Positions 5,034-54,085 of a stretch of 64,000 bases of DNA are shown here, one piece after another. The stretch's first letter is position 1. Every line of letters begins with the position of its first letter. The translations under genes and the position numbers were made by a program. Source of the DNA: Mimachlamys varia (lineage: Eukaryota; Mollusca; Bivalvia; Pectinida; Pectinidae); NCBI GenBank assembly GCA_947623455.1, contig OX392532.1, positions 46,379,058 to 46,443,057 on the forward strand, given 5' to 3'. Below the pieces are notes generated by a model that was given only the letters and a program-made list of their open reading frames with translations, had not been told where the DNA came from and ran no database searches.

Positions 5034-5152
5034 ACAGACTGCGGTCATCGGTGAACGTGTCAACCCTTCGCTTTGTTCTGTACCTCTACATACAACAGAT
5101 CTACAAGGTGTCACTCAAGGCCTCGCTTGTGTCAGGGGAGGAGTATCCTTCT
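5034..5152 (+). CDS. TBCCD1: TBCCD1 exon w1 (first exon in window)
   Basis: The acceptor is tttgttgtttacag, ending at 5033. The exon opens with two bases of a split codon, then reads RLRSSVNVSTLRFVLYLYIQ from 5036 and continues to EEYPS. It matches the TBCCD1 segment preceding the GEEWPSP region of the vertebrate protein. The donor at 5153 (CT|gtatat) is weak; it was chosen because it leaves phase 0, which joins correctly to the next exon. Use of GT at 5143 would break the frame. A 20-bp minisatellite ends about 40 bases before the acceptor. Confidence 0.85.
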
Positions 5153-14100: not shown

Positions 14101-17100
14101 CAGATGGTGGACTATACAAATCACACTCTAATGGAAGTTATTAGTCCACCTATCATCAGATGGTGGACTATACAAATCACACTCTAATGGAAGTTATTAG
14201 TCCACCTATCATCAGATGGTGACTATACAAATCACACTCTAATGGAGGTTATAAGGCCACCTATCATCAGATGGTGGACTATACAAATCACACTCTAATG
14301 GAGGTTATTAGGCCATCTATCATCAGATGGTGGACTATACAAATCACACTCTAATGGAAGTTATTAGTCCACCTATCATCAGATGGTGGACTATACAAAT
14401 CACACTCTAATGGAAGTTATTAGGCCACCTATCATCAGATGGTGGACTATACAAATCACACTCTAATGGAAGTTATTAGGCCACCTATCATCAGATGGTG
14501 ACTATACAAATCACACTCTAATGGAAGTTATTAGACCACCTATCATCAGATGGTGGACTATACAAATCACACTCTAATGGAGGTTATTAGACCACCTATC
14601 ATCAGATGGTGGGCTATACAAATCACACTCTAATGGAGGTTATTAGGCCACCTATCATCAGATGGTGGACTATACAAATCACACTCTAATGGAAGTTATT
14701 AGGCCACCTATCATCAGATGGTGGACTATACAATTCACACTCTAATGGAAGTTATTAGGCCACCTATCATCAGATGGTGGACTATACAAATCACACTCTA
14801 ATGGAAGTTATTAGGCCACCTATCATCAGATGGTGGACTATACAAATCACACTCTAATGGAAGTTATTAGGCCACCTATCATCAGATGGTGGACTATACA
14901 AATCACACTCTAATGGAGGTTACTAGACCACCTATCATCAGATGGTGGACTATACAAATCACACTCTAATGGAAGTTATTAGACCACCTATCATCAGATG
15001 TGGGCTATACAAATCACACTCTAATGGAGGTTATAAGGCCACCTATCATCAGATGGTGGACTATACAAATCACACTCTAATGGAAGTTATTAGGCCACCT
15101 ATCATCAGATGGTGGACTATACAAATCACACTCTAATGGAAGTTATTAGGCCACCTATCATCAGATGGTGACTATACAAATCACACTCTAATGGAAGTTA
15201 TTAGACCACCTATCATCAGATGGTGGACTATACAAATCACACTCTAATGGAAGTTATTAGACCACCTATCATCAGATGGTGGACTATACAAATCACACTC
15301 TAATGGAAGTTATTAGACCACCTATCATCAGATGGTGGGCTATACAAATCACACTCTAATCACAAATCACACTGCTTCTTTGGTATGTCATTTGTCTTTA
15401 GTTTGTCTGTCAAATTTCATAGAGTATAAGTAGTTTTTTACAAATTCATTGTAAACTATATTTAACCTGCCTGCTGTTGGTTATTGTTACAGACGCTAGA
15501 TGACCACAGTCACATGGTATTTGTACAGAACCACATCCATGAAATTCTGGAACTTCTGGTGGAGCCAGGTAAGAATATGATAATCCATTCTCTATCTCCT
15601 TGTTGAGCCAGGTAAGAATGTGAAAATCCCTTCTCTATCTTCTGGTGGAGCCAGGTAAGAATATGATAATCCCTTCTCTATCTCCTTGTTGAGCCAGGTA
15701 AGAATGTGAAAATCCCTTGTTTATCTCCTTGTTGAGCCAGGTAAGAATGTGAAAATCCCTTCTCTATCTTCTGGTGGAGCCAGGTAAGAATATGATAATC
15801 CCTTCTCTATCTCCTTGTTGAGCCAGGTAAGAATGTGAAAATCCCTTCTTTATCTCCTTGTTGAGCCAGGTAAGAATGTGAAAATCCCTTCTCTATCTTC
15901 TGGTGGAGCCAGGTAAGAATATGATAATCCCTTCTCTATCTCCTTGTTGAGCCAGGTAAGAATGTGATAATCCCTTCTCTATCTCCTTGTTGGACCAGGT
16001 AAGAATGTGATAATCCCTTCTCTATCTCCTGGTGTAGCCAGGTAAGAATATGATAATCCCTTCTTTATCTCCTGGTGGAGCCAGGTAAGACTATGATAAT
16101 CCCTTCTTTATCTCCTTGTTGAGCCAGGTAAGAATGTGATAATCCCTTGTCTATCTCCTGGTGGAGCCAGGTAAGAATATGATAATCCCTTCTCTATCTC
16201 CTGGTGGAGCCAGGTAAGAATATGATAATCCCTTCTCTATCTCCTTGTTGAGCCAGGTAAGAATGTGATAATCCCTTCTCTATCTCCTGGTGGAGCCAGG
16301 TAAGAATATGATAATCCCTTCTCTATCTCCTTGTTGAGCCAGGTAAGAATGTGATAATCCCTTCTCTATCTCCTGGTGGAGCCAGGTAAGAATATGATAA
16401 TCCCTTCTCTATCTCCTTGTTGAGCCAGGTAAGAATATGATAATCCCTTCTTTATCTCCTGGTGGAACCAGGTAAGACTATGATAATCCCTTCCCTATCT
16501 CCTGGTGGAGCCAGGTAAGAATATAATGATCCCTTCCCTATCTCCTGGTGAAACCAGGTAAGAATATGATAATCCCTTCTCTATCTCCTGGTGGAGCCAG
16601 GTAAGAATATGATAATCCCTTCTCTATCTCCTGCTGGAGCCAGGTAAGACAATGATAATCCCTTGTCTATCTCTTGGTGGAGCCAGGTAAGAATATGATA
16701 ATCCCTTCCCTATCTCCTGGTGGAGCCAGGTAAGAATATGATAATCCCTTGTCTATCTCCTGGTGGAGCCAGGTAAGAATATGATAATCCCTTCCCTATC
16801 TCCTGGTGGAGCCAGTTAAGAATATGATAATCCCTTCCCTATCTCCTGGTGGGGCCAGGTAAGAATATGATAATCCCTTCCCTATCTCCTGGTGGAGCCA
16901 GGTAAGAATATGATAATCCCTTCCCTATCTCCTGGTGGAGCCAGGTAAGAATATGATAATCCCTTCTCTATCTCCTGGTGTAGCCCGGTAAGAATATGAT
17001 AATCCCTTCTCTATCTCCTGGTGAAGCCAGGTAAGAATGTGATAATCCCTTGTCTATCTCCTGGTGTAGCCAGGTAAGAATGTGATAATCCCTTCTCTAT

Positions 17101-20100
17101 CTCCTGGTGGAGCCAGGTAAGAATGGAAAATCCCTTCTCTATCTCCTGGTGGAGCCAGGTAAGAATATGATAATCCCTTCTCTATCTCCTGGTGGAGCCA
17201 GGTAAGAATATGATAATCCCTTCTCTATCTCCTGGTGGAGCCAGGTAAGAATGTGAAAATCCCTTCTCTATCTCCTGGTGGAGCCAGGTAAGAATATGAT
17301 AATCCCTTCTCTATCTCCTGGTGGAGCCAGGTAAGAATGTGAAAATCCCTTCTCTATCTCCTGGTGGAGCCAGGTAAGAATGTGAAAATCCCTTCTCTAT
17401 CTCCTGGTGGAGCCAGGTAAGACTATGATAATCCCTTCTCTATCTCCTGGTGAAGCCAGGTAAGACTATGATAATCCCTTCTCTATCTTCTGGTGTAGCC
17501 AGGTAAGACTATGATAATCCCTTCTCTATCTCCTGGTGGAGCCAGGTAAGAATATGATAATCCCTTCCCTATCTCCTTGTTGAGCCAGGTAAGAATATGA
17601 TAATCCCTTCTCTATCTCCTGGTGGAGCCAGGTAAGAATATGATAATCCCTTCTCTATCTCCTGGCTCCGAGATCATGAAACAATCTTAGACTTAAATTT
17701 GTGCTTAGCCAATCAAGTATGACGTTACTTTTTGTGACGTTATTTGTGATTGGCTAAGTCCAAACTTAACACAACTACAGACTTAAGATTGTTTCATGAT
17801 CCGGGGGCCTGGTGTAGCCAGGTAAGAATATGATAATCCCTTCTCTATCTCCTGGTGGAGCCAGGTAAGAATATGATAATCCCTTCTCTATCTCCTGGTA
17901 GAGCCAGGTAAGAATATGATAATCCCTTCTCTGTCTTCTGATGGAGCCAGGAAAGACTATGATAATCCCTTCTCTATCTCCTGGTGGAACCAGATAAGAA
18001 TATGATAATCCCTTCTCTATCTCCTGGCTCCGAGATCATGAAACAATCTTAGACTTAAATTTGTGCTTAGCCAATCACGTATGACGTTACTTTTTGTGAC
18101 GTTATTTGTGATTAGCTAAGTCTAAACTTAAGACAACTATAGACTTAAGATTGTTTCATGATCCGGGGGCCTGGTGTAGCCAGGTAAGAATATGATAATC
18201 CCTTCTCTATCTCCTGGTAGAGCCAGGTAAGAATATGATAATCCCTTCTCTATCTCCTGGTAGAGCCAGGAAAGACTATGATAATCCCTTCTCTATCTCC
18301 TGGTGGAGCCAGTTAAGAATATGATAATCCCTTCTCTATCTCCTGGTGAAGCCAGGTAAGAATATGATAATCCCTTCTCTATCTCCTGGTGTAGCCAGGT
18401 AAGAATGTGATAATCCCTTCTCTATCTCCTGGTGGAGCCAGGAAAGACTATGATAATCCCTTCCCTATCTCCTGGTGGAGCCAGGTAAGAATATGATAAT
18501 CCCTTCTCTATCTCCTGGTGTAGCCAGGTAAGAATATGATAATACCTTCTCAGTTTGTGCCAAACTTTCAAAACCTTTACAGGACATTTGGGCAGGTTAT
18601 CCAAAAAATTTACAGGTCCAAAATAATTTTTACATTTTCATAAAACTGCACATACCGTGGGTCCTGGTGTATATACTGTACGGGTGTCTTTCTCTCCTAC
18701 AGACGTTCTGAGTACCGTAGGTCCTGGTGTATATACTGTACACATGTCTTTCTCTCCTACAGACGTTCTGAGTATCGTGGGTCCTGGTGTATATACTGTA
18801 CACATGTCTTTCTCTCCTACAGACGTTCTGAGTATCGTGGGTCCTGGTGTATATACTGTACACATGTCTTTCTCTCCTACAGATGTTCTGAGTACCTCGG
18901 GTCCTGGTGTATATACTGTACACATGTCTTTCTCTCCTACAGACGTTCTGAGTACCTTAGGACCTGGTGTATATACTGTACGCATGTCTTTCTCTCCTAC
19001 AGACGTTCTGAGTACCTTAGGACCTGGTGTATATACTGTACGCATGTCTTTCTCTCCTACAGACGTTCTGAGTACCGTAGGTCCTGGTGTATATACTGTA
19101 TGCGTGTTTTTCTCTCCTACAGATGTTCTGAGTACCTCGGGTCCTGGTGTATATACTGTACACATGTCTTTCTCTCCTACAGACGTTCTGAGTACCGTGG
19201 GTCCTGGTGTATATACTGTACGCATGTCTTTCTCTCCTACAGATGTTCTGAGTACCGTAGGTCCTGATGTATATACTGTACGCGTGTCTTTCTCTCCTAC
19301 AGACGTTCTGAGTACCGTGGGTCCTGGTGTATATACTGTACGCGTGTCTTTCTCTCCTACAGACGTTCTGAGTACCGTGGGTCCTGGTGTATATACTGTA
19401 CGCGTGTCTTTCTCTCCTACAGACGTTCTGAGTACCGTGGGTCCTGATGTATATACTGTACGCGTGTCTTTCTCTCCTACAGACGTTCTGAGTACCGTAG
19501 GTCCTGGTGTATATACTGTACACATGTTTTTCTCTCCTACAGACGTTCTGAGTACCGTGGGTCCTGGTGTATATACTGTACGCGTGTCTTTCTCTCCTAC
19601 AGACGTTCTGAGTACCGTGGGTCCTGATGTATATACTGTACACATGTCTTTGACTCCTACAGACGTTCTGAGTACCGTAGGTCCTGGTGTATATACTGTA
19701 CACATGTCTTTGACTCCTACAGACGTTCTGAGTACCGTGGGTCCTGGTGTATATACTGTACACATGTTTTTCTCTCCTACAGACGTTCTGAGTACCGTGG
19801 GTCCTGGTGTATATACTGTACGCGTGTCTTTCTCTCCTACAGACGTTCTGAGTACCGTGGGTCCTGGTGTATATACTGTACACATGTCTTTCTCTCCTAC
19901 AGACGTTCTGAGTACCATAGGTCCTGGTGTATATACTGTACACATGTCTTTCTCTCCTACAGACGTTCTGAGTACCGTGGGTCCTGGTGTATATACTGTA
20001 CACATGTCTTTCTCTCCTACAGACGTTCTGAGTACCGTGGGTCCTGGTGTATATACTGTACGCGTGTCTTTCTCTCCTACAGACGTTCTGAGTACCATAG

Positions 20101-23100
20101 GTCCTGGTGTATATACTGTACGCATGTCTTTCTCTCCTACAGACGTTCTGAGTACCATAGGTCCTGGTGTATATACTGTACACGTGTCTTTCTCTCCTAC
20201 AGATGTTCTGAGTACCGTGGGTCCTGGTGTATATACTGTACACATGTCTTTCTCTCCTACAGATGTTCTGAGTACGGTGGGTCCTGATGTATATACTGTA
20301 CACGTGTCTTTCTCTCCTACAGATGTTCTGAGTACGGTGGGTCCTGATGTATATACTGTACACATGTCTTTCTCTCCTACAGATGTTCTGAGTACCGTGG
20401 GTCCTGGTGTATATACTGTACACATGTCTTTCTCTCCTACAGATGTTCTGAGTACCGTGGGTCCTGGTGTATATACTGTACACATGTCTTTGACTCCTAC
20501 AGATGTTCTGAGTACCGTGGGTCCTGGTGTATATACTGTACACATGTTTTTCTCTCCTACAGACGTTCTGAGTACCGTGGGTCCTGGTGTATATACTGTA
20601 CGCGTGTCTTTCTCTCCTACAGACGTTCTGAGTATCGTGGGTCCTGGTGTATATACTGTACGCGTGTCTTTCTCTCCTACAGATGTTCTGAGTACCGTGG
20701 GTCCTGGTGTATATACTGTATGGGGGTGTATATACTGTACGCGTGTCTTTCTCTCCTACAGACGTTCTGAGTACCGTGGGTCCTGGTGTATATACTGTAC
20801 ACATGTCTTTCTCTCCTACAGATGTTCTGAGTACCGTGGGTCCTGATGTATATACTGTACACATGTCTTTCTCTCCTACAGACGTTCTGAGTACCGTAGG
20901 TCCTGGTGTATATACTGTACGCGTGTCTTTCTCTCCTACAGATGTTCTGAGTACCGTGGGTCCTGGTGTATATACTGTACACATGTCTTTGACTCCTACA
21001 GACGTTCTGAGTATCGTGGGTCCTGGTGTATATACTGTACACATGTCTTTCTCTCCTACAGACGTTCTGAGTACCATAGGTCCTGGTGTATATACTGTAC
21101 GCATGTCTTTCTCTCCTACAGATGTTCTGAGTACGGTGGGTCCTGGTGTATATACTGTACGGGTGTCTTTCTCTCCTACAGACGTTCTGAGTACCGTGGG
21201 TCCTGGTGTATATACTGTACACATGTCTTTCTCTCCTACAGACGTTCTGAGTATCGTGGGTCCTGGTGTATATACTGTACGCATGTCTTTCTCTCCTACA
21301 GACGTTCTGAGTACCGTGGGTCCTGATGTATATACTGTACACGTGTCTTTCTCTCCTACAGACGTTCTGAGTACCGTGGGTCCTGGTGTATATACTGTAC
21401 GCATGTCTTTCTCTCCTACAGACGTTCTGAGTACGGTGGGTCCTGATGTATATACTGTACGCATGTCTTTCTCTCCTACAGACGTTCTGAGTACCGTGGG
21501 TCCTGGTGTATATACTGTACGCGTGTCTTTCTCTCCTACAGATGTTCTGAGTACCGTGGGTCCTGGTGTATATACTGTACGCATGTCTTTCTCTCCTACA
21601 GACGTTCTGAGTACCGTGGGTCCTGGTGTATATACTGTACGCGTGTCTTTCTCTCCTACAGACGTTCTGAGTACCGTGGGTCCTGGTGTATATACTGTAC
21701 GCGTGTCTTTCTCTCCTACAGACGTTCTGAGTACCATAGGTCCTGGTGTATATACTGTACGCATGTCTTTCTCTCCTACAGACGTTCTGAGTACCGTGGG
21801 TCCTGGTGTATATACTGTACGCATGTCTTTCTCTCCTACAGACGTTCTGAGTACCGTGGGTCCTGGTGTATATACTGTACACGTGTCTTTCTCTCCTACA
21901 GACGTTCTGAGTACCGTAGGTCCTGGTGTATATACTGTACACATGTCTTTCTCTCCTACAGACGTTCTGAGTACCGTAGGTCCTGGTGTATATACTGTAC
22001 ACATGTCTTTCTCTCCTACAGATGTTCTGAGTACCGTAGGTCCTGGTGTATATACTGTACGCGTGTCTTTCTCTCCTACAGATGTTCTGAGTACCGTAGG
22101 TCCTGGTGTATATACTGTACGCGTGTCTTTCTCTCCTACAGACGTTCTGAGTACCGTGGGTCCTGGTGTATATACTGTACGCGTGTTTTTCTCTCCTACA
22201 GACGTTCTGAGTACCGTAGGTCCTGGTGTATATACTGTACGCATGTCTTTCTCTCCTACAGACGTTCTGAGTACCTTAGGACCTGGTGTATATACTGTAC
22301 GCGTGTTTTTCTCTCCTACAGACGTTCTGAGTACCGTAGGTCCTGGTGTATATACTGTACGCATGTCTTTCTCTCCTACAGATGTTCTGAGTACCGTGGG
22401 TCCTGGTGTATATACTGTACGCGTGTTTTTCTCTCCTACAGACGTTCTGAGTACCGTAGGTCCTGGTGTATATACTGTACACATGTTTTTCTCTCCTACA
22501 GACGTTCTGAGTACCGTGGGTCCTGATGTATATACTGTACGCATGTCTTTCTCTCCTACAGACGTTCTGAGTACCGTGGGTCCTGGTGTATATACTGTAC
22601 ACGTGTCTTTGACTCCTACAGATGTTCTGAGTACCGTGGGTCCTGGTGTATATACTGTACGCGTGTCTTTCTCTCCTACAGACGTTCTGAGTACCGTGGG
22701 TCCTGGTGTATATACTGTACACGTGTCTTTGACTCCTAAAGATGTTCTGAGTACCGTGGGTCCTGGTGTATATACTGTACGCGTGTCTTTCTCTCCTACA
22801 GACGTTCTGAGTACCATAGGTCCTGGTGTATATACTGTACACATGTTTTTCTCTCCTACAGACGTTCTGAGTACCGTAGGTCCTGATGTATATACTGTAC
22901 ACATGTTTTTCTCTCCTACAGATGTTCTGAGTACGGTGGGTCCTGATGTATATACTGTACTCATGTCTTTCTCTCCTACAGACGTTCTGAGTATCGTGGG
23001 TCCTGGTGTATATACTGTACACATGTCTTTCTCTCCTACAGACGTTCTGAGTATCGTGGGTCCTGGTGTATATACTGTACGCATGTCTTTCTCTCCTACA

Positions 23101-44100: not shown

Positions 44101-47100
44101 GGAGATTTGGGATAGAAGTGTGATGTAGACTGGAGATTTGGGGGAGAGGTGTGATGTAGACTGGAGATTTGGGAGAGAGATGTGATGTAGACTGGAGATT
44201 TATGAGAGAGGTGTGATGTAGACTGGAGATTTGGGATAGAAGTGTGATGTAGACTGGAGATTTGGGGGAGAGGTGTGATGTAGACTGGAGATTTGGGAGA
44301 GAGATGTGATGTAGACTGGAGATTTGGGGGAGAGGTGTGATGTAGACTGGAGATTTGGGAGAGAGATGTGATGTAGACTGGAGATTTGGGGGAGAGGTGT
44401 GATGTAGACTGGAGATTTGGGGGAGAGGTGTGATGTAGACTGGAGATTTGGGAGAGAGGTGTGATGTAGACTGGAGATTTGGGAGAGAGATGTGATGTAG
44501 ACTGGAGATTGGGGAGAGAGATGTGATGTAGACTGGAGATTTGGGGGAGAGGTGTGATGTAGACTGGAGATTTGGGAGAGAGGTGTGATGTAGACTGGAG
44601 ATTTGGGAGAGAGGTGTGATGTAGACTGGAGATTTGGGAGAGAGGTGTGATGTAGACTGGAGATTTGGGAGAGAGGTGTGATGTAGACTGGAGATTTGGG
44701 ATAGAAGTGTGATGTAGACTGGAGATTTGGGAGAGAGGTGTGATGTAGACTGGAGATTTGGGAGAGAGGTGTGATGTAGACTGGAGATTTGGGAGAGAGG
44801 TGTGATGTAGACTGGAGATTTGGGGGAGAGGTGTGATGTAGACTGGAGATTTGGGAGAGAGATGTGATGTAGACTAGAGATTTGGGGGAGAGGTGTGATG
44901 TAGACTGGAGATTTGGGGGAGAGATGTGATGTAGACTAGAGATTTGGGGGAGAGGTGTGATGTAGACTGGAGATTTGGGAGAGAGGTATGATGTAGACTG
45001 GAGATTTTTGAGAGAGGTGTGATGTAGACTGGAGATTTGGGGGAGAGGTGTGATGTAGACTGGAGATTTGGGGAAAAGTGTGATGTAGACTGGAGATTTG
45101 GGAGAGAGGTGTAATGTAGACTGGAGATTTGGGGGAGAGGTGTGATGTAGACTGGAGATTTAGGGGAGAGGTGTGATGTAGACTGGAGATTTGGGGGAGA
45201 GGCACGATGTAGACTGGAGATTTGGGAGAGAGGTGTGATGTAGACTGGAGATTTGGGGGAGAGGTGTGATGTAGACTGGAGATTTGGGGAGGTGTGATGT
45301 AAACTGGAGATTTGGGAGAGAGGTGTGATGTAGACTGGAGATTTGGGGGAGGTGTGATGTAGACTGGAGATTTGGGAGAGAGGTGTGATGTAGACTGGAG
45401 ATTTGGGGGAGAGGTGTGATGTAGACTGGAGATTTGGGGGAGAGATGTGATGTAGACTGGAGATTTCGGGGGAGAGAGATGTGATGTGGACTGGAGATTT
45501 GGGAGAGAGATGTGATGTAGACTGGAGATTTGGGAGAGAGATGTGATGTAGACTGGAGATTTGGGGGAGAGGTGTGATGTAGACTGGAGATTTGGGAGAG
45601 AGGTGTGATGTAGACTGGGGATTTGGTGGAGAGATGTGATGTAGACTGGAGATTTGGGAGAGAGGTGTGATGTAGACTGGAGATTTGGGGGAGAGGTGTG
45701 ATGTAGACTGGAGATTTGGGGGAGAGATGTGATGTAGACTGGAGATTTCGGGGGAGAGAGATGTGATGTGGACTGGAGATTTGGGAGAGAGATGTGATGT
45801 AGACTGGAGATTTGGGAGAGAGATGTGATGTAGACTAGAGATTTGGGAGAGAGATGTGATGTAGACTAGAGATTTGGGGGAGAGGTGTGATGTTGACTGG
45901 AGATTTCGGGGGAGAGAGATGTGATGTGGACTGGAGATTTGGGAGAGAGATGTGATGTAGACTGGAGATTTCGGGGGAGAGAGGTGTGATGTGGACTGGA
46001 GATTTGGGAGAGAGGCACGATGTAGACTGGAGATTTGGGGGAGAGGTGTGATGCAGATTGGAGATTTGGGAGAGAGATGTGATGTAGACTGGAGATTTTG
46101 GGGGAGAGAGATGTGATGTAGGCTTGAGATTTAGTGGAGAGGTGTGATGTAGACTGGAGATTTGGGGGAGAGGTGTGATGTAGACTGGAGATTTGGGGGA
46201 GAGGTGTGATGTAGACTGGAGATTTGGGGGAGAGGTGGGATGTAGACTGGTGATTTGGGAGAGAGGTGTGATGTAGACTGGAGATTTGGGAGAGAGGTGT
46301 GATGTAGACTGGAGATTTGGGAGAGAGATGTGATGTAGACTGGAGATTTGGGGGAGAGGTGTGATGTAGACTGGAGATTTGGGAGAGAGGTATGATGTAG
46401 ACTGGAGATTTGGGAGAGAGATGTTATGTAGACTGGAGATTTGGGAGAGAGATGTGATGTAGACTGGAGATTTGGGAGAGAGGTGTGATGTAGACTGGAG
46501 ATTTGGGATAGAAGTGTGATGTAGACTGGAGATTTGGGGGAGAGGTGTGATGTAGACTGGAGATTTGGGAGAGAGATGTGATGTAGACTGGAGATTTGGG
46601 AGAGAGGTGTGATGTAGACTGGAGATTTGGGATAGAAGTGTGATGTAGACTGGAGATTTAGGGGAGAGGTGTGATGTAGACTGGAGATTTGGGGGAGAGG
46701 TGTGATGTAGACTGGAGATTTGGGGGAGAGGTGGGATGTAGACTGGTGATTTGGGAGAGAGGTGTGATGTAGACTGGAGATTTGGGAGAGAGATGTGATG
46801 TAGACTGGAGATTTGAGGGAGAGGTGTGATGTAGACTGGAGATTTGGGAGAGAGGTATGATGTAGACTGGAGATTTGGGAGAGAGATGTGATGTAGACTG
46901 GAGATTTGGGAGAGAGATGTGATGTAGACTGGAGATTTGGGAGAGGGGTGTGATGTAGACTGGAGATTTGGGATAGAAGTGTGATGTAGACTGGAGATTG
47001 TGGGGAGAGGTGTGATGTAGACTGGAGATTTGGGAGAGAGATGTGATGTAGACTGGAGATTTGGGGGAGAGGTGTGATGTAGACTGGAGATTTGGGAGAG

Positions 47101-50100
47101 AGGTATGATGTAGACTGGAGATTTGGGAGAGAGATGTGATGTAGACTGGAGATTTGGGGGAGAGAGATGTGATGTAGACTGGAGATTTATGAGAGAGGTG
47201 TGATGTAGACTGGAGATTTGGGATAGAAGTGTGATGTAGACTGGAGATTTGGGGGAGAGGTGTGATGTAGACTGGAGATTTGGGAGAGAGATTTGATGTA
47301 GACTGGAGATTTGGGGGAGAGGTGTGATGTAGACTGGAGATTTGGGAGAGAGATGTGATGTAGACTGGAGATTTGGGGGAGAGGTGTGATGTAGACTGGA
47401 GATTTGGGAGAGAGGTGTGATGTAGACTGGAGATTTGGGAGAGAGGTGTGATGTAGACTGGAGATTTGGGAGAGAGATGTGATGTAGACTGGAGATTTGG
47501 GGGAGAGGTGTGATGTAGACTGAAGATTTGGGAGAGAGGTGTGATGTAGACTGGAGATTTGGGATAGAAGTGTGATGTAGACTGGAGATTTGGGGGAGAG
47601 AGATGTGATGTAGACTGGAGATTTGGGGGAGAGAGGTGTGATGTAGACTGGAGATTTGGGGGAGAGGTGTGATGTAGACTGGAGATTTGGGAGAGAGATG
47701 TAATGTAGACTGGAGATTTGGGGGAGAGATGTGTGATGTAGACTGGAGATTTGGGGGAGAGAGGTGTGATGTAGACTGGAGATTTGGGGGAGAGGTGTGA
47801 TGTAGACTGGAGATTTGGAGGAGAGATGTGATGTAGACTGGAGATTTGGGGGAGAGGTGTGATGTAGACTGGAGATTTTTGAGAGAGGTGTGATGTAGAC
47901 TGGAGATTTGGGGGAGAGGTGTGATGTAGACTGGAGATTTGGGAGAGAGGTGTGATGTAGACTGGAGATTTGGGAGAGAGATGTGATGTAGACTGGAGAT
48001 TTGGGGGAGAGGTGTGATGTAGACTGGAGATTTGGAGGAGAGAGGTGTGATGTAGACTGGAGATTTGGGGGAGAGGTGTGATGTAGACTGGAGATTTGGG
48101 GGAGAGGTATGATGTAGACTGGAGATTTGGGAGAGAGATGTAATGTAGACTGGAGATTTGGGAGAGAGATGTGATGTAGACTGGAGATTTGGGAGAGAGG
48201 TGTGATGTAGACTGGAGATTTGGGATAGAAGTGTGATGTAGACTGGATATTTGGGGGAGAGAGATGTGATGTAGACTGGAGATTTGGGAGAGAGGTGTGA
48301 TGTAGACTGGAGATTTGGGATAGAAGTGTGATGTAGACTGGAGATTTGGGGGAGAGAGATGTGATGTAGACTGGAGATTTGGGAGAGAGGTGTGATGTAG
48401 ACTGGAGATTTGGGAGAGAGGTGTGATGTAGACTGGAGATTTGGGAGAGAGATGTAATGTAGACTGGAGATTTGGGGGAGAGGTGTGATGTAGACTGGAG
48501 ATTTAGAGGAGAGGTGTGATGTAGACTGGAGATTTGGGGGAGGTGTGATGTAGACTGGAGATTTAGGGGAGAGTTGTGATGTAGACTGGAGATTTGGGAG
48601 AGAGGTGTGATGTAGACTGGAGATTTGGGAGAGAGATGTGATGTAGACTGGAGATTTGGGGGAGAGGTGTGATGTAGACTGAAGATTTGGGAGAGAGGTG
48701 TGATGTAGACTGGAGATTTGGGATAGAAGTGTGATGTAGACTGGAGATTTGGGGGAGAGAGATGTGATGTAGACTGGAGATTTGGGGGAGAGAGGTGTGA
48801 TGTAGACTGGAGATTTGGGGGAGAGGTGTGATGTAGACTGGAGATTTGGGAGAGAGATGTAATGTAGACTGGAGATTTGGGAGAGAGATGTGATGTAGAC
48901 TGGAGATTTGGGGGAGAGAGGTGTGATGTAGACTGGAGATTTGGGGGAGAGGTGTGATGTAGACTGGAGATTTGGAGGAGAGATGTGATGTAGACTGGAG
49001 ATTTGGGGGAGAGGTGTGATGTAGACTGGAGATTTTTGAGAGAGGTGTGATGTAGACTGGAGATTTGGGGGAGAGGTGTGATGTAGACTGGAGATTTGGG
49101 AGAGAGGTGTGATGTAGACTGGAGATTTGGGAGAGAGATGTGTTGTAGACTGAAGATTTAGGGTAGAGATGTGATGTAGACTGGAGATAATGGGGAGAGG
49201 TGTGATGTAGACTGGAGATTTGGGAGAGAGGTGTGATGTAGACTGGAGATTTCGGGGGAGAGAGATGTGATGTAGACTGGAGATTTGGGGGAGAGAGGTG
49301 TGATGTAGACTGGAGATTTTTGAGAGAGGTGTGATGTAGACTGGAGATTTGGGGGAGAGGTGTGATGTAGACTGGAGATTTGGGAGAGAGGTGTGATGTA
49401 GACTGGAGATTTGGGGGAGAGGTGTGATGTAGACTGGAGATTTAGGGGAGAGATGTGATGTAGACTGGAGATTTGGGAGAGAGGTGTGATGTAGGCTTGA
49501 GATTTAGGGGAGAGGTGTGATGTAGACTGGAGATTTGGGGAAAAGTGTGATGTAGACTGGAGATTTGGGAGAGAGGTGTGATGTAGACTGAAGATTGGGG
49601 GAGAGATGTGATGTAGACTGGAGATTTGGGGGAGAGGTGTGATGTAGACTGGAGATTTGGGGGAGATATTTTGTAGATATTTTGTAATCCACTGATGTTT
49701 CTACTCAGGACATTCCTGGAGGCCTGCCTACCAAGTACCAGAAAGCTGTCGCGCAACGTCAGAAGATGATAGATAGCTGGCAGAAAACGGTCAAAGAGGC
49801 AGGATTAAGTCGTGAACAACGCAAGGAGTTTCAAGCTTTAGTTGAAACCAGATTTCATGTAAGTGAGTTAGTGGTGCATTTATTTTAAATGTAATGGGGT
49901 GGCTAGTTTGGTGAGGATAGCGAGGGAGGTAATGGGAGGACTTTATTAATATCTTTGCAACCACGGCCATTGTAGCAACCACGGCCATTGTAGTTACCAA
50001 CGTAGCAACCATGGCCATTGTAACAACCAACTTCAAATTAAGTAAATAAAAGGATTGTACCTCATTTTGTGTATACGGTAGTATGCCAACGGTTGGCAAC

Positions 50101-52030
50101 AAATATATTTACTATGGAACGCTAACATGCACCATAGGATATGTTCGTTGCCAACTGCGGGATACTACCATATATTTACACCTCTCCCTTCTTGAGCTTA
50201 GTAAACTCTGACTGCGAATATATTACCGTATACGCAGTGAAAAAAGGCTTGGCGGATTGATATTTGTTCAAATATGGCGTCGCTCACGCTTCAGAAAAAT
50301 AAGTATTCACTGTCGGCCATTGTTTGGTTCCTACAAGATTTTGAAACATGGAACATATATGGAATCAATTTCTTTTGATTAAACAATAAATAGTTTCTAG
50401 CAAACTTTTGATTCCAAATGATGCGCATTTGAAATTATTTGACCGTAACGCAAACATGGCGGCGCCCTGCAATTGTGACGTCTGACGTCGGACCGCGTCA
50501 CAACCAGATCACTATGTCAATGCGTGTACATAACGACCGTTATAAATAAATAAATTTGACTTGTTAGAAATATTATTTAATACGAAATTTACATATGATG
50601 TTATGAAGAAAAATAGTGTTGTTCACAGTGTATATTCTACATCTACCAATATAATGATGAAATCCAATGAGACTATATTATCTAAGCAACCACGGCCATC
50701 GTAGTTACCATCTTAGCAACCCGCTTCAAATGCTATTTTCTTTGTATAGCACTTGAAAATAAATAATGGTGTAAATATAAGGATTGTACCTCATTTTGAC
50801 TACGTATACGGTAGTATGCCCGCAGTTGGCATACTACCGTATACGTAGTCAAAATGAGGTACAATCCGTATATACGCATTCAAAATGAAGTACAATCCTT
50901 ATATACAGAGGGTGTGTTGTGTAATCCGCCAAGTAATTATGTATATGTCCTCTCTACCAAGTAACTATGTGTATGCCCTCTCTACCAAGTAACTATGTAT
51001 ATGTCCTCTCCACCAAGTAACTATGTGTATGTCCTCTACACCAAGTAACTATGTGTATGCCCTCTCCACCAGGTTACTATGTGTATGTCCTCTCTACCAA
51101 GTAACTATGTATATGTCCTCTCCACCAAGTAACTATGTATATGTCCTCTCCACCAAGTAACTATGTATATGTCCTCTCCACCAAGTAACTATGTATATGT
51201 CCTCTCCACCAAGTAACTATGTGTATGCCCTCTCTACCAAGTAACTATGTGTATGCCCTCTCTACCAAGTAACTATGTGTATGCCCTCTCTACCAAGTAA
51301 CTATGTGTATGCCCTCTCCACCAGGTTACTATGTGTATGTCCTCTCTACCAAGTAACTATGTATATGTCCTCTCTACCAAGTAACTATGTGTATGCCCTC
51401 TCCACCAGGTTACTATGTGTATGTCCTCTCCACCAAGTAACTATGTATATGTCCTCTCTACCAAGTAACTATGTGTATGCCCTCTCCACCAGGTTACTAT
51501 GTGTATGTCCTCTCTACCAAGTAACTATGTGTATGTCCTCTCCACCAAGTAACTATGTATATGCCCTCTCCACCAGGTTACTATGTGTATGTCCTCTCCA
51601 CCAAGTAACTATGTATATGCCCTCTCCACCAGGTTACTATGTGTATGTCCTCTCTACCAAGTAACTATGTGTATGCCCTCTCTACCAAGTAACTATGTGT
51701 ATGCCCTCTCTACCAAGTAACTATGTATATGTCCTCTCCACCAAGTAACTATGTGTATGTTTAATGTGTAAGAATTTGAAATTCATATTTAATTAATCTG
51801 AAATTTGCCATGGTTTAAATTGAAACTCCATAAAAGGAAAGTGGTACTAAGAGGTATTAGTCCTGACTGGACTGTTGTAGTTTCCATGTGATTTTGGTTG
51901 ATCTACAGTTCTGTATTACTTTCTTGTGATGTTGTAGGTGTGGTTAGCAGAAACAGGCTACAAACGAGAACTTGATAGTCTGGTGGCACCTCTTCAGTCT
52001 AACAAGTCTGGTGGCACCTCTTCAGTCTAA
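5034..52030 (+). CDS. TBCCD1: TBCCD1, C-terminal 445 residues in 13 exons (gene body; 5' end outside window)
   Basis: Thirteen exons with GT/AG boundaries and matching phases (5034-5152, 15493-15568, 23102-23198, 25612-25678, 26472-26592, 30433-30523, 31002-31050, 31206-31285, 33669-33791, 35442-35617, 36740-36837, 49709-49858, 51938-52030) join into one open frame of 445 residues plus TAA. Recognisable family stretches in order: TLRFVLYLYIQQ, PNPFGISSC, VKIHRC, YLLSPLRSVTIEKCRNS, PYHTHYPSLDDH, IPGGLPTKYQKA, SWQKTVKEAGLSREQRKEF. The human protein has about 557 residues, so about 110 N-terminal residues are missing upstream. Window residues of about 190-320 form the C-CAP/TBCC beta-helix domain. 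The family is related to tubulin cofactor C and RP2 but acts in centrosome and centriole positioning and Golgi organisation (known for human TBCCD1 and its Chlamydomonas orthologue). The gene is unusual for its giant introns built of minisatellites. No frame break was found in the coding exons. Confidence 0.93.
5166..9080. repeat. 41/43-bp minisatellite in intron 1
   Basis: About 92 units of aataagtctgtatactttgg followed by (gg)tttctgtatgatgtagaacgt, in a 43-bp GGGG form and a 41-bp GG form, with tatg/tttg and atgt/ttgt variants. It begins 13 bases after the exon w1 donor. Minus-strand ORFs of up to 498 codons arise because no frame of the unit has a stop; they are not genes. Confidence 0.97.
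9081..9611. other. Non-repetitive part of intron 1 with a 49-bp direct duplication
   Basis: Ordinary intronic sequence. Bases 9168-9216 are duplicated in tandem at 9217-9265 with one mismatch. A palindromic GTTGCTAGGCAAC at 9427-9439 resembles an RFX X-box. No coding potential beyond short chance ORFs. Confidence 0.7.
9612..15365. repeat. 56-bp minisatellite in intron 1 (~102 units)
   Basis: The unit runs atggaagttattaggccacc, tatcatcagatggtggacta, tacaaatcacactcta. Common variants are gtta/ggtta, ggcc/gacc/gtcc, cacctatc/catcaatc and a one-base-shorter ggtgacta form. A rare insertion (aatcacactcttatgg) appears near 12195 and again near 12773, marking an internal segmental duplication. It has no spacer-repeat organisation, so it is not a CRISPR array. 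Confidence 0.97.
15493..15568 (+). CDS. TBCCD1: TBCCD1 exon w2
   Basis: Acceptor attgttacag; the exon reads TLDDHSHMVFVQNHIHEILE then LLVEP and ends one base into a codon. The donor is the strong consensus GCCAG|gtaagaat. The last 16 coding bases plus this donor are the founder of the 43-bp tandem array that fills the following 3 kb, so the authentic donor is the first of about 60 equivalent sites. Confidence 0.92.
17666..17808. mobile_element. Foldback MITE-like palindrome, copy 1
   Basis: About 143 bases forming a long imperfect hairpin: GATCATGAAACAATCTTAGA near the left end pairs with the inverse near the right end, continuing through GCTTAGCCAATCA / TGATTGGCTAAG. The centre has two tgacgtta motifs. 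It sits inside the 43-bp donor array between ctcctgg and tggtgtagcc. Confidence 0.8.
18028..18170. mobile_element. Foldback MITE-like palindrome, copy 2
   Basis: Same element as 17666-17808 with a few substitutions (for example caatcacg for caatcaag). It lies at exactly the same position in the repeat unit, 362 bases downstream, so it was copied by array duplication rather than a second insertion. Confidence 0.8.
18561..18649. other. Unique junction between donor and acceptor arrays
   Basis: About 90 bases of non-repetitive sequence (ttgtgccaaactttcaaaac ... cataaaactgcacatacc) separate the two arrays of intron 2. This is the only unique sequence of the 7.5-kb intron apart from the inserted palindromes, and so a likely remnant of the ancestral intron. 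Confidence 0.7.
18650..23130. repeat. 60-bp minisatellite built from the exon w3 acceptor and start
   Basis: About 74 units, each holding a pyrimidine tract and acceptor (tctttctctcctacag), then 26 bases of exon w3 coding sequence (ACGTTCTGAGTACCGTGGGT, CCTGGT), then gtatatactgtacacatg. A 26-base partial-unit insertion near 20721 shifts frame; downstream of it about 40 units stay open in the same frame as exon w3. The unit is stop-free in + and - frames, giving spurious ORFs of up to 1393 codons. Some units have tgactcctacag instead of tctctcctacag. Confidence 0.97.
23102..23198 (+). CDS. TBCCD1: TBCCD1 exon w3
   Basis: Acceptor ctctcctacag ends at 23101. The exon reads (G)AC GTT... = DVLSTVGPGDQAVSLVALEA then LGFLVAGSVDKC, and the donor is GCAA|gtaagttg. 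The first 26 or so bases (to GTCCTGGT) and the acceptor are repeated every 60 bases upstream to about 18650. This copy is taken as the real start because it is the only one continuing into conserved coding sequence. Upstream acceptors would add 20 residues each in frame. Confidence 0.88.
23270..24050. repeat. 26-bp minisatellite in intron 3
   Basis: About 30 units of acctgtctggtgtgtgagtg, tctgtg with tctataacc variants and shortened units lacking agtg-tgtg (near 23755-23870). It starts about 70 bases past the exon w3 donor and contains no recognisable copy of the splice site. Confidence 0.95.
24051..24868. other. AT-rich intron 3 sequence, nothing recognised
   Basis: About 800 bases of AT-rich, non-repetitive intronic sequence. 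I see no exon-like conservation, RNA gene or element ends. Confidence 0.6.
24869..25310. repeat. Dispersed element fragment with three ~140-bp units
   Basis: It begins with a small palindrome (gcccatcatcatcagatggg) and contains three diverged units, each with atatggccgacatccagcca-like and ttgaaggttcccctt-like blocks (24935, 25073, 25215), spaced about 140 bases. This resembles the tandem core of a non-autonomous element; both short ORFs across it are artefacts. 25311-25611 is AT-rich unique sequence up to the exon w4 acceptor. Confidence 0.55.
25612..25678 (+). CDS. TBCCD1: TBCCD1 exon w4
   Basis: Acceptor caactttcag ends at 25611. The exon completes K from the previous exon and reads SLLPIQDVALLQTVQHRTGY then SK, matching the family segment with the P(L/I)xxxALxQ pattern and GFSK-like end. 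Donor AAAG|gtaggtat is in phase 0. A 29-bp array starts at this donor. Confidence 0.9.
25679..26265. repeat. 29/27-bp minisatellite starting at the exon w4 donor
   Basis: About 21 units of gtaggtataaccagacagct, agtccccag, shortening to gtaggtaaccagccagctac, tccccag. The first unit starts at the authentic donor AAAG|gtaggt. Each unit juxtaposes an acceptor-like ccccag and a donor-like gtaggt. Exon end GGCTACTCAAAG resembles the unit end cagctactccccag, suggesting derivation from the boundary. Confidence 0.95.
26472..26592 (+). CDS. TBCCD1: TBCCD1 exon w5
   Basis: Acceptor ttctttttcag. It reads TSQIFSLRLLQTWIKDSLMP then NPFGISSCIASGRRLSWPMA, with the family hallmarks TW(I/L)..., NPFG(I/T)S.C and SG(R/K)(R/K)L.W. 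It ends one base into a codon at GCAG|gtaatgat. The last 29 coding bases recur four times in the next 300 bases as a 67-bp tandem repeat. Confidence 0.93.
26564..26890. repeat. 67-bp repeat containing the end of exon w5
   Basis: The exon w5 segment tgggcgtcgcctctcctggc and following gtaatgattcc recur four times (about 26641, 26706, 26772 and 26838) with intervening tagtattttgttgtacagta. In the copies the CCATGGCAG|GTAATG boundary has decayed to AGCATAAATAATG or AGCATAAGTAATG, so most have lost the donor GT. Confidence 0.9.
27862..27918. repeat. 57-bp direct repeat, left copy
   Basis: Starts tgatatttgcctggtagctt and ends gcaaatgaaaat; identical over 57 bases to 29118-29174. It brackets the embedded minisatellite block and marks its insertion point in the element. 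Confidence 0.95.
27919..29117. repeat. Transplanted copy of the exon 8/intron 8 repeat block
   Basis: 27919-28370 holds about eleven units of the 31-bp repeat (tacctactgtcacccctcag then gtaaatacctg), ten of them with an intact CTCAG|GTAAAT, whose founder is the end of exon w8 and its donor. 28371-29117 holds about 14 units of the 54-bp repeat also found at 31535-33640. The junction, including cccctatgtattttaacagg and tactgtactgacctaggtta, is the same in both loci, so this is one copied block. Confidence 0.93.
29118..29174. repeat. 57-bp direct repeat, right copy
   Basis: Exact copy of 27862-27918. The host element continues from here (gacattgtcttgcatggtcaca) as expected for an uninterrupted copy. 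Confidence 0.95.
29330..30430. repeat. T-rich 14/18-bp composite minisatellite before exon w6
   Basis: Alternating units tttacatgttattg and tttatttacatgttattg (or tttatttccatgttattg). It runs directly into the exon w6 acceptor, whose catgttttacag is a modified unit. The two unit lengths keep the plus frames free of stops, giving false ORFs of up to 410 codons, one of which ends in exon w6 sequence in a non-coding frame. Confidence 0.95.
30433..30523 (+). CDS. TBCCD1: TBCCD1 exon w6
   Basis: Acceptor catgttttacag ends at 30432; its bases grade directly into the T-rich array upstream. It reads GEDKDNRSDQATKRGKIATN then AHAVPKGHIK, matching the family's KRAKIA.N.H..P segment before the beta-helix domain. 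Donor AAAGG|gtaggtcc, phase 2. Confidence 0.88.
30635..30915. repeat. 26-bp minisatellite in intron 6
   Basis: About ten units of acaaaatcacttagtgtctc, gacttg, diverging at both ends. It lies wholly inside the 478-base intron 6. Confidence 0.93.
31002..31050 (+). CDS. TBCCD1: TBCCD1 exon w7
   Basis: A short 49-base exon after acceptor cttttttcaag. It completes G and reads SKIIIMSQVSKQTISR; MSQV.KQT is strongly conserved at the start of the C-CAP/TBCC domain. Donor CCCGT|gtaagtat, phase 0. Confidence 0.92.
31206..31285 (+). CDS. TBCCD1: TBCCD1 exon w8
   Basis: Acceptor gttttgtag. It reads SSGTLENSSVKIHRCHYSYL then YLLSPL, part of the beta-helical TBCC domain. The donor CCCTCAG|gtaaat is the first of a 31-bp tandem series (about six copies here, about ten more transplanted into intron 5). 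Phase 2. Confidence 0.93.
31250..31534. repeat. 31-bp repeat from the exon w8 end and donor
   Basis: About eight units of tacctactgtcacccctcag, gtaaatacctg; the first is the real coding end of exon w8. Six copies keep a pyrimidine-rich stretch followed by CTCAG|GT(A/T)AAT. One unit has an internal variant (cccctatgtattttaacagg) shared with the copy in intron 5. Confidence 0.95.
31535..33640. repeat. 54-bp minisatellite in intron 8 (~39 units)
   Basis: The unit runs gtgacctaggttagggacag, tgtgtacacagtttatatac, actgttgtcccacc. It ends about 28 bases before the exon w9 acceptor. The 54-bp length keeps a minus-strand frame open for 701 codons (18-residue repeat), which is not a gene. The TTAGGG inside each unit occurs once per 54 bases and is not telomeric. 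Confidence 0.97.
33669..33791 (+). CDS. TBCCD1: TBCCD1 exon w9
   Basis: Acceptor ggtgtttttag ends at 33668. It completes R and reads SVTIEKCRNSTIILGPVETT then VYLSHCEKVTLIAPCRFLMI, the core rungs of the C-CAP/TBCC beta-helix with alternating hydrophobic residues. Donor ATCAG|gtaagtca, phase 2. Confidence 0.94.
33792..35440. repeat. 34-bp minisatellite filling intron 9 (~48 units)
   Basis: The unit is gtgactcctagagtcagtta, tctgtgtgtatgta. It runs from the exon w9 donor (gtaagtcaccatagtaactgctagag is a diverged first unit) to the exon w10 acceptor. Each unit contains the small inverted repeat TGACTCctaGAGTCA. Confidence 0.97.
35442..35617 (+). CDS. TBCCD1: TBCCD1 exon w10
   Basis: Acceptor ctgttttttag. 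It reads GSTLCNLHLLTPSRPMLLGG, NDTILLAPYHTHYPSLDDHL and ends at NLWNQPLCV. The LTP.RP and L.AP(Y/F)HTHYP.L.DH blocks are diagnostic of TBCCD1. Donor GTGTGG|gtaagtga, phase 1. The final 46 coding bases and donor are amplified as a 53-bp array over the next kilobase. Confidence 0.94.
35572..36650. repeat. 53-bp repeat of the exon w10 end and donor (~20 units)
   Basis: Each unit copies 46 coding bases of exon w10 (ggctgtgtgctgacagaaac, ctgtggaaccaacccttatg, tgtgg) and the donor gtaagtg. Almost all keep GTGTGGGTAAGTG. The internal gtgctgacag resembles an acceptor, so each unit resembles a 29-base mini-exon. The minus-strand ORFs of up to 264 codons are repeat shadows. Confidence 0.96.
36740..36837 (+). 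CDS. TBCCD1: TBCCD1 exon w11
   Basis: Acceptor tttgttttgtag. It reads (G)PEHKDETPVWELLPVQEFFT then FNIPFHMEGTTM. (V/F).(L/Q)LLP..(E)F..F.IPF.MEG is conserved. Donor ACCATG|gtaagtga, phase 0. It opens the largest intron, a 12.8-kb tandem array that starts within ten bases of the donor. Confidence 0.93.
36838..49670. repeat. 31-bp G-rich minisatellite filling intron 11 (~410 units, 12.8 kb)
   Basis: The unit is gatgtagactggagatttgg, gagagaggtgt with ggggga, agatgt and occasional +2/-4 base forms. It begins at the exon w11 donor (gtaagtgatgtagactggag) and stops about 35 bases before the exon w12 acceptor. The RNA-like strand is G-rich with about one C per unit. Higher-order duplications are visible: 39615-39884, 42540-42809 and 44936-45205 are the same. 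Confidence 0.98.
49709..49858 (+). CDS. TBCCD1: TBCCD1 exon w12
   Basis: Acceptor tgtttctactcag. It reads DIPGGLPTKYQKAVAQRQKM, IDSWQKTVKEAGLSREQRKE then FQALVETRFH. This is the charged, helical C-terminal segment of the family (IPGGLP.(V/K)YQKA, WQKTVKEA.L...QRK.FQ.LVE). Donor TTTCAT|gtaagtga, phase 0. Confidence 0.95.
49859..50931. other. Intron 12 unique region with inverted and direct repeats
   Basis: This holds a pair of related ~110-base direct repeats (about 49955-50060 and 50680-50790), each with gcaaccacggccat and aaggattgtacctcattttg. Between them lies non-repetitive sequence with a GC-rich patch near 50455-50510 containing two GACGTC motifs. The right part ends in a perfect 40-base inverted repeat. 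It is probably a non-autonomous element or two MITE copies; no coding capacity seen. Confidence 0.55.
50781..50867. repeat. Perfect 40-bp inverted repeat with 7-base loop
   Basis: The left arm 50781-50820 begins ggattgtacctcattttgac; the right arm 50828-50867 is its exact reverse complement; the loop is cgcagtt. A further partial copy of the right arm (aaaatgaagtacaatcctta) follows at 50882-50901, and a diverged relative of the left arm is at 50052-50090. Confidence 0.95.
50932..51760. repeat. 28-bp minisatellite in intron 12 (~29 units)
   Basis: The unit is ctctaccaagtaactatgtg, tatgccct with ccaccaag, ccaggtta and tatatgtc variants. It has no clear relation to either splice site of the intron. 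51761-51937 is unique sequence leading to the exon w13 acceptor. Confidence 0.95.
51938..52030 (+). CDS. TBCCD1: TBCCD1 last coding exon w13 and stop
   Basis: Acceptor gatgttgtag ends at 51937. It reads VWLAETGYKRELDSLVAPLQ then SNKSGGTSSV and TAA at 52028-52030. The WL..TG.(R/K)..LDSLV.P part matches the family C-terminus; the final residues are translated from the first two units of the 27/28-bp array. The unit of 28 bases shifts frame between the first unit (read LQSNKSGG) and the second (read SSV stop), so the array itself provides the stop codon. Confidence 0.92.
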   Translation: MWLAETGYKRELDSLVAPLQSNKSGGTSSV

Positions 52031-54085
52031 CAAGTCTGGTGGCACCTCTTCAGTCTACAAGTCTGGTGGCACCTCTTCAGTCTACAAGTCTGGTTGCACC
52101 TCTTCAGTCTAACAAGTCTGGTGGCACCTCTTCAGTCTAACAAGTCTGGTGGCACCTCTTCAGTCTACAAGTCTGGTGGCACCTCTTCAGTCTACAAGTC
52201 TGGTGGCACGTCTTCAGTCTAACAAGTCTGGTGGCACCTCTCCAGTCTAACAAGTCTGGTGGCACCTCTTCAGTCTACAAGTCTGGTGGCACCTCTTCAG
52301 TCTAACAAGTCTGGTGGCACCTCCTCAGTCTAATAAGTCTGGTTGCACCTCTTCAGTCTACAAGTCTGGTGGCACGTCTTCAGTCTACAAGTCTGGTGGC
52401 AATTTTTCAGTCTACAAAAATCTGGTGGCACCTCTTCAGTCTAACAAGTCTTGTGGCACCTCTTCTGTCTAAAAAGACTGGTGGCAATTCTTCAGTCTAA
52501 CAAGTCTGGTGGCACCTCTTCAGTCGAACTAGTCTGGTGGCACCTCTTCCGTCTAGAAGTCTGGTGGCAATTCTTCAGTCTAAAAAAACTGGTGGCACCT
52601 CTTCCATCTACAAGTCTGGTGGCACCTCTTCAGTCTAACAAATCTGGTGGCACCTCTTTAGTCTAACAAGTCTGGTGGCACCTCTTCAGTCTAACAAGTC
52701 TGGTGGCACCTCTTCAGTCTAACAAGTCTTGTGGCACCTCTTCAGTCTACAAGTCTGGTGGCACCTCTTCAGTCTACGAGTCTGGTGGCACCTCTTCAGT
52801 CTAACAAGTCTGGTGGCACCTCTTTAGTCTAACGAGTCTGGTGGCACCTCTTCAGTCTAATAAGTCTGGTGGCACCTCTTCAGTCTACAAGTCTGGTTGC
52901 ACCTCTTCAGTCTAACAAGTCTGGTGGCACCTCTTCAGTCTAACAAGTCTGGTGGCACCTCTTCAGTCTACAAGTCTGGTGGCACCTCTTCAGTCTACAA
53001 GTCTGGTTGCACCTCTTCAGTCTAACAAGTCTGGTGGCACCTCTTCAGTCTAACAAGTCTGGTGGCACCTCTTCAGTCTACAAGTCTGGTGGCACCTCTT
53101 CAGTCTACAAGTCTGGTGGCACGTCTTCAGTCTAACAAGTCTGGTGGCACCTCTCCAGTCTAACAAGTCTGGTGGCACCTCTTCAGTCTACAAGTCTGGT
53201 GGCACCTCTTCAGTCTAACAAGTCTGGTGGCACCTCCTCAGTCTAATAAGTCTGGTTGCACCTCTTCAGTCTACAAGTCTGGTGGCACGTCTTCAGTCTA
53301 CAAGTCTGGTGGCAATTTTTCAGTCTACAAAAATCTGGTGGCACCTCTTCAGTCTAACAAGTCTGGTGGCACCTCTTCTGTCTAAAAAGACTGGTGGCAA
53401 TTCTTCAGTCTAACAAGTCTGGTGGCACCTCTTCAGTCGAACTAGTCTGGTGGCACCTCTTCCGTCTAGAAGTCTGGTGGCAATTCTTCAGTCTAAAAAA
53501 ACTGGTGGCACCTCTTCCATCTACAAGTCTGGTGGCACCTCTTCAGTCTAACAAATCTGGTGGCACCTCTTTAGTCTAACAAGTCTGGTGGCACCTCTTC
53601 AGTCTAACAAGTCTGGTGGCACCTCTTCAGTCTAACAAGTCTTGTGGCACCTCTTCAGTCTACAAGTCTGGTGGCACCTCTTCAGTCTACGAGTCTGGTG
53701 GCACCTCTTCAGTCTAACAAGTCTGGTGGCACCTCTTTAGTCTAACGAGTCTGGTGGCACCTCTTCAGTCTAATAAGTCTGGTGGCACCTCTTCAGTCTA
53801 ACAAGTCTGGTGACACCTCTTCAGTCTACAAGTCTGGTGGCACCTCTTCAGTCTAACAAGTCTGGTGGCACCTCTTCAGTCTAACAAGTCTGGTGGCACC
53901 TCTTCAGTCTAACAAGTCTGGTGGCACCTCTTCAGTCAAACAAGTATGGTGGCACCTCTTCAGTCTACAAGTCTGGTGGCACCTCTTCAGTCTAACAAGT
54001 CTTGTGGCACCTCTTCAGTCGACAAGTCTGGTGGCACCTCTTCAGTCTACAAGTCTGGTGGCACCTCTTCAGTCTAACAAGTAAA
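51978..54085. repeat. 27/28-bp minisatellite covering the TBCCD1 C-terminus and 3' UTR
   Basis: About 76 units of tctggtggcacctcttcagt, ctaacaag (28) or ctacaag (27). The first two units are translated; the rest should form about 2 kb of 3' UTR. A block recurs with an offset of 913 bases (for example 52481 and 53394). Small plus-strand ORFs across it are artefacts. Confidence 0.96.

Follow-up and report, generated by a model that had tools for sequence, protein, structure and literature searches.

The introns of TBCCD1 in Mimachlamys varia contain tandem arrays in which exon DNA has been copied outwards across splice boundaries, with the splice sites mostly retained, and comparable boundary copies occur in other genes. 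Unit blocks within these arrays have been duplicated, and a patch of array sequence moved between introns is flanked by a 57-bp direct duplication. For donors, a small exon sample and a genome-wide word count support a process that acts at splice boundaries, a reading weakened by a conservative positional control. The window referred to below is the whole 64,000-nucleotide stretch of DNA that was analyzed, and the exons and arrays given with coordinates lie on its plus strand.

Results

A 406-aa open frame of 12 hand-joined exons extends over positions 15493–52030, with its stop codon at 52030, and its product matches TBCCD1 (Pfam TBCC, E 2.7e-32); within the best 120 of 346 proteins, the closest matches were transcript P0001 (91%) and Tegillarca granosa (79%). 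With P0001 as the tblastn query, two extra exons were located upstream in the window, eA (about 5035–5139) and eB (about 9488–9556), both with edges set by hand, and two more lie upstream, outside the window. The donor of eB is apparently of the GC type (AAG|GCTAGT, a putative reading of the sequence). Tandem Repeats Finder (TRF) returned 64 rows for the window, and the arrays are minisatellites in the sense of tandem units of about 10–100 bp in several copies. Collectively, the arrays occupy 41,186 of the 45,601 bases in the 13 introns.

The initial annotation had described tandem units that incorporate the end or start of a coding exon along with the adjoining splice site; each of these boundary copies was recovered. 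The donor of exon 2 (15493–15568) is inside an array with a 43-bp unit (A4, 15556–18551) that includes the 13 terminal exon bases by TRF, or 25 by looser extension, and GT is kept in 56/62 full units. The acceptor of exon 3 (23102–23198) is inside a 60-bp unit array (A5, 18653–23128) covering 27 exon bases, with AG kept in all 73 full units. For exon 8 (31206–31285), the donor and the 27 terminal exon bases are part of a 31/38-bp unit array (A14, 31259–31530; exon bases within the 31-bp unit; GT in 5/6 full units), while the donor of exon 10 (35442–35617) is within a 53-bp unit array (A17, 35573–36657) that takes in 45 terminal exon bases and keeps GT in 20/20 full units. The 67-bp unit at the donor of exon 5 (26472–26592) contains 30 exon bases when read by eye (A8, 26563–26894), with the TRF start one base past the donor at 26594; by eye, the distal copies of A8 are without a donor. 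Lastly, the coding end in exon 13 (51938–52030) falls inside a 27/28-bp unit array (A22, 51977–54082) that begins in coding sequence, includes 54 coding bases with the stop codon and extends to the 3′ side.

Other boundaries sit at the very edge of arrays, also as initially described. The 29-bp array A7 (25677–26255) begins at the final 2 bases of exon 4 (25612–25678), a distance of −2 bp to the donor, and keeps GT in 19/20 full units. The 34-bp array A16 (33801–35427) extends from 9 bp past the donor of exon 9 (33669–33791) to 14 bp ahead of the exon 10 acceptor, the 31-bp array A18 (36842–49666; 58 types among its 412 units) begins 4 bp past the donor of exon 11 (36740–36837) and the 32-bp array A12 (29340–30426) stops 6 bp ahead of the acceptor of exon 6 (30433–30523). 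Further array edges occur 9 bp from the donor and 18 bp from the acceptor of eA and 29 bp from the exon 9 acceptor. Four arrays are not at boundaries (A3, A6, A13 and A21, with the nearest boundary at 60, 78, 76 and 177 bp, respectively). Exon 7 (31002–31050) is followed by an array-free intron of 155 bp, and exon 12 occupies 49709–49858. Beyond the upstream end of the window, an array with a 35-bp unit (38 copies) contains GGAT|GTAAG at the donor of one exon, and the next acceptor is crossed by a 50-bp array of 12 copies.

The direction of copying can be read from the encoded protein. For exons 2, 5, 8, 10 and 13, the exon part of the array encodes residues common to other bivalves, indicating that copying proceeded outwards from the exon. 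In exon 3, this part varies among relatives. Copies deviate by 4–8% on average from the consensus of their array, and the unit consensus differs from intron to intron, with the exception of a patch of intron 8 copied into intron 5. Introner-like elements consist of a single element sequence repeated in many introns, an identity rejected here by the differing units. The array of exon 3 is open in the frame of that exon (74/74 gap-free units free of stops), such that an upstream acceptor copy, if used, could add 20-residue repeats. Selection for this open frame was considered but not supported, as 0 stop-making substitutions were observed against 0.10 expected and chance suffices. At the other end of the protein, where P0001 terminates in LQSVTKK and T. 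granosa in LQSQNKKS, the frame here ends in LQSNKSGGTSSV within the 28-bp array, a tail unlike that of its relatives. From the sequence, the C-terminus of TBCCD1 seems to have been replaced by array A22, and to have become longer as a result.

Several features document how the arrays have grown and moved. Block duplication is evident in A18 (39 identical units at a lag of 77) and A22 (16 at a lag of 33), and A4 has a 362-bp period in which the block is composed of a 142-bp inverted-repeat insert (two copies, 17666–17807 and 18028–18169) and five units. The 1.2-kb copy of the intron 8 arrays in intron 5 (27862–29174) matches its source at 94% identity across 1,034 bases and at 96% across 759, and is flanked by a perfect 57-bp direct duplication (27862–27918 and 29118–29174). 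A related unbroken element aligns across the joined patch flanks at 73%, and each patch junction has 3–4 bases of microhomology by eye. A staggered break with fill-in would account for the 57-bp duplication, and repair of the same kind without a patch would leave a tandem pair of unit-like size. Among 21 low-copy pairs, the junction overlap is scattered, with 16 at 4 bases or fewer (some below zero, where the copy is shorter than the unit) and 5 at 9–18, which leaves fill-in a suggested model and not a proven one.

It had been proposed that so many arrays at the boundaries of TBCCD1 are hard to explain by random minisatellite birth, a claim that comparison with chance expectation did not support. 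When the arrays are collapsed to one unit each, 9 of the 13 introns are 57–248 bp long (full range 57–1,668 bp). Arrays that reach 5 or more exon bases across a boundary number 5/15, against 4.90 expected for random seeds of 26–67 bp and 3.67–5.10 under four sets of copying rules (P 0.27–0.65). The 15 counted arrays omit A2b, A9, A10, A11, A19 and A20, which are few-copy, element-internal or copied (21 in total), and A1 and A22 are outside the 13 counted introns. Array edges within 20 bp of a boundary are in mild excess (11/15 vs. 7.65–8.20 expected, P 0.015–0.047). If the ancestral introns are all assumed to have been at least 500 bp, the expected number of crossings falls to 1.62 (P 0.016), while at 150 bp P is 0.24. 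The TBCCD1 count alone cannot decide the matter, as it depends on the true ancestral intron lengths.

Exons of kinesin and myosin genes were the basis of a sample from the window’s own genome (975,302,275 bases in 71 contigs). The kinesin model had 131 matches, from which 25 stop-free exons were used in order of E-value, with one on a small contig (C60) skipped; these were selected before the sequence was inspected and taken with about 400 bases on either side. The myosin-head model had 74 exon matches, with 34 used from 8 loci chosen by eye as compact clusters. The rule for placing splice sites was free of array data, yet was devised after the loci had been viewed by eye, and placed 52 donors and 54 acceptors from the 59 exons. 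Arrays were counted with a unit of at least 18 bp, at least 1.8 copies and a TRF score of at least 50, and arrays at exons missed by the models (e.g., L031 1263, L033 4437 and L028 3828) are uncounted.

Donors in this sample are straddled about four times as often as expected from random seeding. Eight of the 40 arrays span a donor, compared to 1.82 expected (P 0.0002), and 7 of these 8 extend 23–73 bases into the exon by the placement rule. Arrays of this kind at the sampled loci include one with a 37-bp unit in about 65 copies that starts in LEANPIMEG|gtaagt, a 75-bp unit in 5 copies, a 46-bp pair that is 100% identical, and others. Both gene families contribute to the excess at donors (kinesin, 4 vs. 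1.19, P 0.023; myosin, 4 vs. 0.63, P 0.003), which is lower when arrays are limited to at least 2.5 copies (4 vs. 1.20, P 0.024) and amounts to 6 vs. 1.73 (P 0.005) for units of at least 25 bp. Acceptors are spanned by 3 of the 40 arrays against 1.87 expected (P 0.28; kinesin, 2 vs. 1.16; myosin, 1 vs. 0.71). An earlier count of 20 kinesin and 34 myosin exons, which dropped exons with a stop in the HMM match, had 6 donors against 1.17 and 2 acceptors against 1.32; the final count checks only the 60 edge-adjacent bases for stops and gains 5 exons. The excess at donors is found in unrelated genes on other chromosomes, which makes the recurrent boundary process suggested by the initial annotation plausible for donors; enrichment at acceptors is not supported in the exon sample.

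A direct comparison of the two site types is not significant within the sample. Donors and acceptors are spanned in 8/52 and 3/54 cases (P 0.12), and the addition of the TBCCD1 region by hand count (5/15 donors and 2/16 acceptors), which is the locus where the pattern was discovered, results in 13/67 vs. 5/70 (P 0.043). In an uncollapsed positional control, 8/52 donors are covered, compared to 6–9 of 47–52 intronic positions between +80 and +320, a flat profile that results from the same arrays continuing into the intron. With arrays limited to 3.2 copies or fewer, the values are 6/52 at donors and 2–4 of 47–52 in the intron. Two further observations were made among the kinesin loci. A 30-bp array about 170 bp inside a kinesin intron (L050, 725–953) has a unit resembling the donor region of the same exon, an arrangement that a displaced donor-derived unit or a lost flank could produce. 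On one contig (G000:C10, 7.99–8.95 Mb), there is a row of several kinesin gene copies that are almost equal in score.

A word test across the whole genome also distinguishes donors. The donor word CAGGTAAG occurs 70,845 times and in 21,300 pairs at a gap of 15–45 bases, compared to 17,047 and 1,312 for the reversed word, for a pair-to-single ratio of 0.301 vs. 0.077 (3.9×). The second donor word, AAGGTAAG, has a ratio of 0.189 vs. 0.042 for its reversed control (4.5×), the acceptor word TTTACAGG has 0.166 vs. 0.087 (1.9×) and the mutated donor CAGATAAG has 0.082 vs. 0.167 (0.5×). Both donor words exceed all five control words (0.042–0.167), in a test that tallies every copy, such that a few huge arrays weigh heavily, and in which one control (0.167) is at the level of the acceptor word. 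When sites on contig C1 are grouped within 1 kb, two copies within 100 bp occur among the matches listed at 3/22 sites for CAGGTAAG and 2/92 for CAGATAAG (one-sided P 0.049), at 3/79 for TTTACAGG and at 7/46 for AAGGTAAG, with all seven inside a pair of repeat regions at about 0.1 and 1.03 Mb; these counts are from the first 100 matches per word, with the strands unequally covered.

Short microhomology such as CAGGT had been put forward as a possible factor behind the arrays, and as a general array property this was not supported. In 17 arbitrary 10-kb stretches of the genome, the share of minisatellites varies from 0 to 100% (mean 28%; zero in 4), and none of the 37 array units in these stretches matches the donor consensus at 8 or 9 of 9 positions, where shuffles average 1.35. 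The donor motif is accordingly not supported as a general source of arrays in these stretches. R-loops at transcribed junctions had been offered as another possible cause, and strand skew does not support them as a general one. The GC skew of six boundary arrays is mixed in sign (A4, −0.06; A5, −0.03; A8, 0.03; A14, −0.47; A17, 0.28; A7, −0.14), with a consistent G-rich skew of the sense strand absent among them. Separately, A18, the 12.8-kb array in intron 11, has a sense-strand GC skew of +0.86, where the next highest array has 0.45, which brings to mind strongly skewed R-loop regions.

Discussion

The explanation that best accommodates these observations, held with a confidence just short of even, is that tandem duplications produced by break repair are tolerated at splice sites and are biased towards donors. 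Under this explanation, the genome would spawn minisatellites at many places, each unit of about 20–90 bp beginning as a local tandem duplication, most simply through fill-in and low-homology rejoining of a staggered break. The array would then expand by the copying of unit blocks. Duplications internal to exons would presumably be purged, while those straddling a splice site would be tolerated, as a complete site is present in every copy and the one nearest the exon is usable, allowing these duplications to persist and grow. Exon definition provides a context for this tolerance, since the exon-proximal splice site among several copies could serve. With donors of the sampled genes straddled at about four times the random expectation, a further bias acting on the 5′ splice site is inferred, most likely a mutational one tied to transcription or splicing. 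The stronger form of this proposal is more tentative: the 5′ splice site may be a mutational hotspot in this lineage, subject to breaks coupled to splicing or transcription, with about 1 conserved donor in 6 or 7 (8/52) straddled and introns turned into arrays whose copies number in the dozens to hundreds and often include a splice site that looks functional.

The most serious alternative, though a doubtful one, is that geometry alone is responsible, with arrays born at random, short introns forcing contact with the boundaries and exons purged, without a process at splice sites. The TBCCD1 count agrees with this alternative (5/15 spanning arrays vs. about 3.7–5.1 expected), as does the flat positional coverage control. 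Geometry is less able to account for the kinesin and myosin loci, which are mostly array-poor (a share of 2–35% in the eight myosin loci) and yet have eight donors spanned, or for donor words that surpass every control word. Such over-representation of donor words in tandem pairs could instead indicate that the AGGTAAG word itself promotes slippage or cutting anywhere, independent of transcription or splicing, and A7, L033 1426 and L032 441 do begin at or a few bases from a donor. This is improbable given the units of the 17 arbitrary stretches, which have no excess of the motif, and given that nearly all of the donor-spanning arrays reach well into the exon, away from the word. The high rates at which the splice sites of the copies are intact might also be the product of selection for spare donors, for instance if array-expanded introns were spliced more efficiently when their 5′ splice site is repeated. 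The motif positions are not reliably less variable (ranks of 6/43, 37/60, 6/29, 30/31 and 16/53) and the exon 5 array has copies without a donor, making such selection very unlikely.

Two further readings are given almost no weight. The introns themselves could have been born from tandem duplication of exon segments bearing AGGT; the units of A7 and A14 contain AG|GTA, and fission yeast offers a precedent (PMC4974935, PMC3629103). In a comparison with proteins of molluscs, an annelid and mammals, however, gaps or inserts end within 3 residues of 9/13 junctions, including those of introns 2, 4 and 11, with 6 of the 9 resting on one protein each and about 1 residue in 5 lying that close by chance. 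Gap edges of these proteins offer no support for introns 5, 8, 9 and 10, and some gap edges match no junction (both ends of the 421–446 gap in P0048, the start at 120 in P0012 and several mammalian starts at 112–113). Gain by tandem duplication was rejected for most introns on this basis, and the protein comparison points to an origin of introns 2, 4 and 11 other than these duplications. An assembly artefact is equally remote; the arrays are known from one assembly, but their copies differ from the consensus to the degree noted above and the same anatomy is found on several chromosomes.

It should be noted that parts of this pattern have counterparts in known systems. Intron gain has been modelled as tandem genomic duplication (Rogers 1989, as cited; reviewed in PMC3443670), with a case in potato (PMC4974935) and introns built of tandem exonic units in the fission yeast genes SPOG_01682/SOCG_00815 (PMC4974935, PMC3629103). 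That model shares with the present arrays short tandem duplications bearing AGGT/GT splice signals; the arrays differ in that 9/13 introns look older, no intron birth is seen and copies number in the dozens to hundreds. Compared to intronic minisatellites and VNTRs, the unit size, copy number, block duplications and degenerate edges are alike, whereas in several genes of this genome the unit takes in coding sequence along with an entire splice site. In the scallop Chlamys farreri, tandem repeats are the most abundant repeat type, at 11.3% of the genome (PMC5700196); the sample mean of 28% here was derived with another TRF filter. The open-access literature searched yielded no report of minisatellites arising at splice sites genome-wide. 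A search for relatives among viral contigs was negative.

Several equivalent splice sites in a row are also a feature of tandem alternative splice sites, such as NAGNAG acceptors. The candidate sites in the arrays would likewise be equivalent and in series, but with a spacing of 20–90 bp and in up to about 75 copies. Should donors prove to be duplication hotspots, the genome would offer many natural events in which to study the damage that transcription and splicing cause to DNA. It would also provide a view of the origin of minisatellites and of how the spliceosome chooses among dozens of near-identical sites, and a concrete route from tandem duplication to altered gene structure, as in the apparently changed end of the TBCCD1 protein.

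Additional repeats and a further open frame occur in the window. A dispersed element with internal repeats of about 145 bp is present at 624–4253, 26910–29298 and 54620–54960, and by eye one copy of it splits a 20-bp array ahead of exon eA. On the minus strand, an exon-like open frame of 67 aa is located at 63711–63911, with a 23/54-bp array just past its end.
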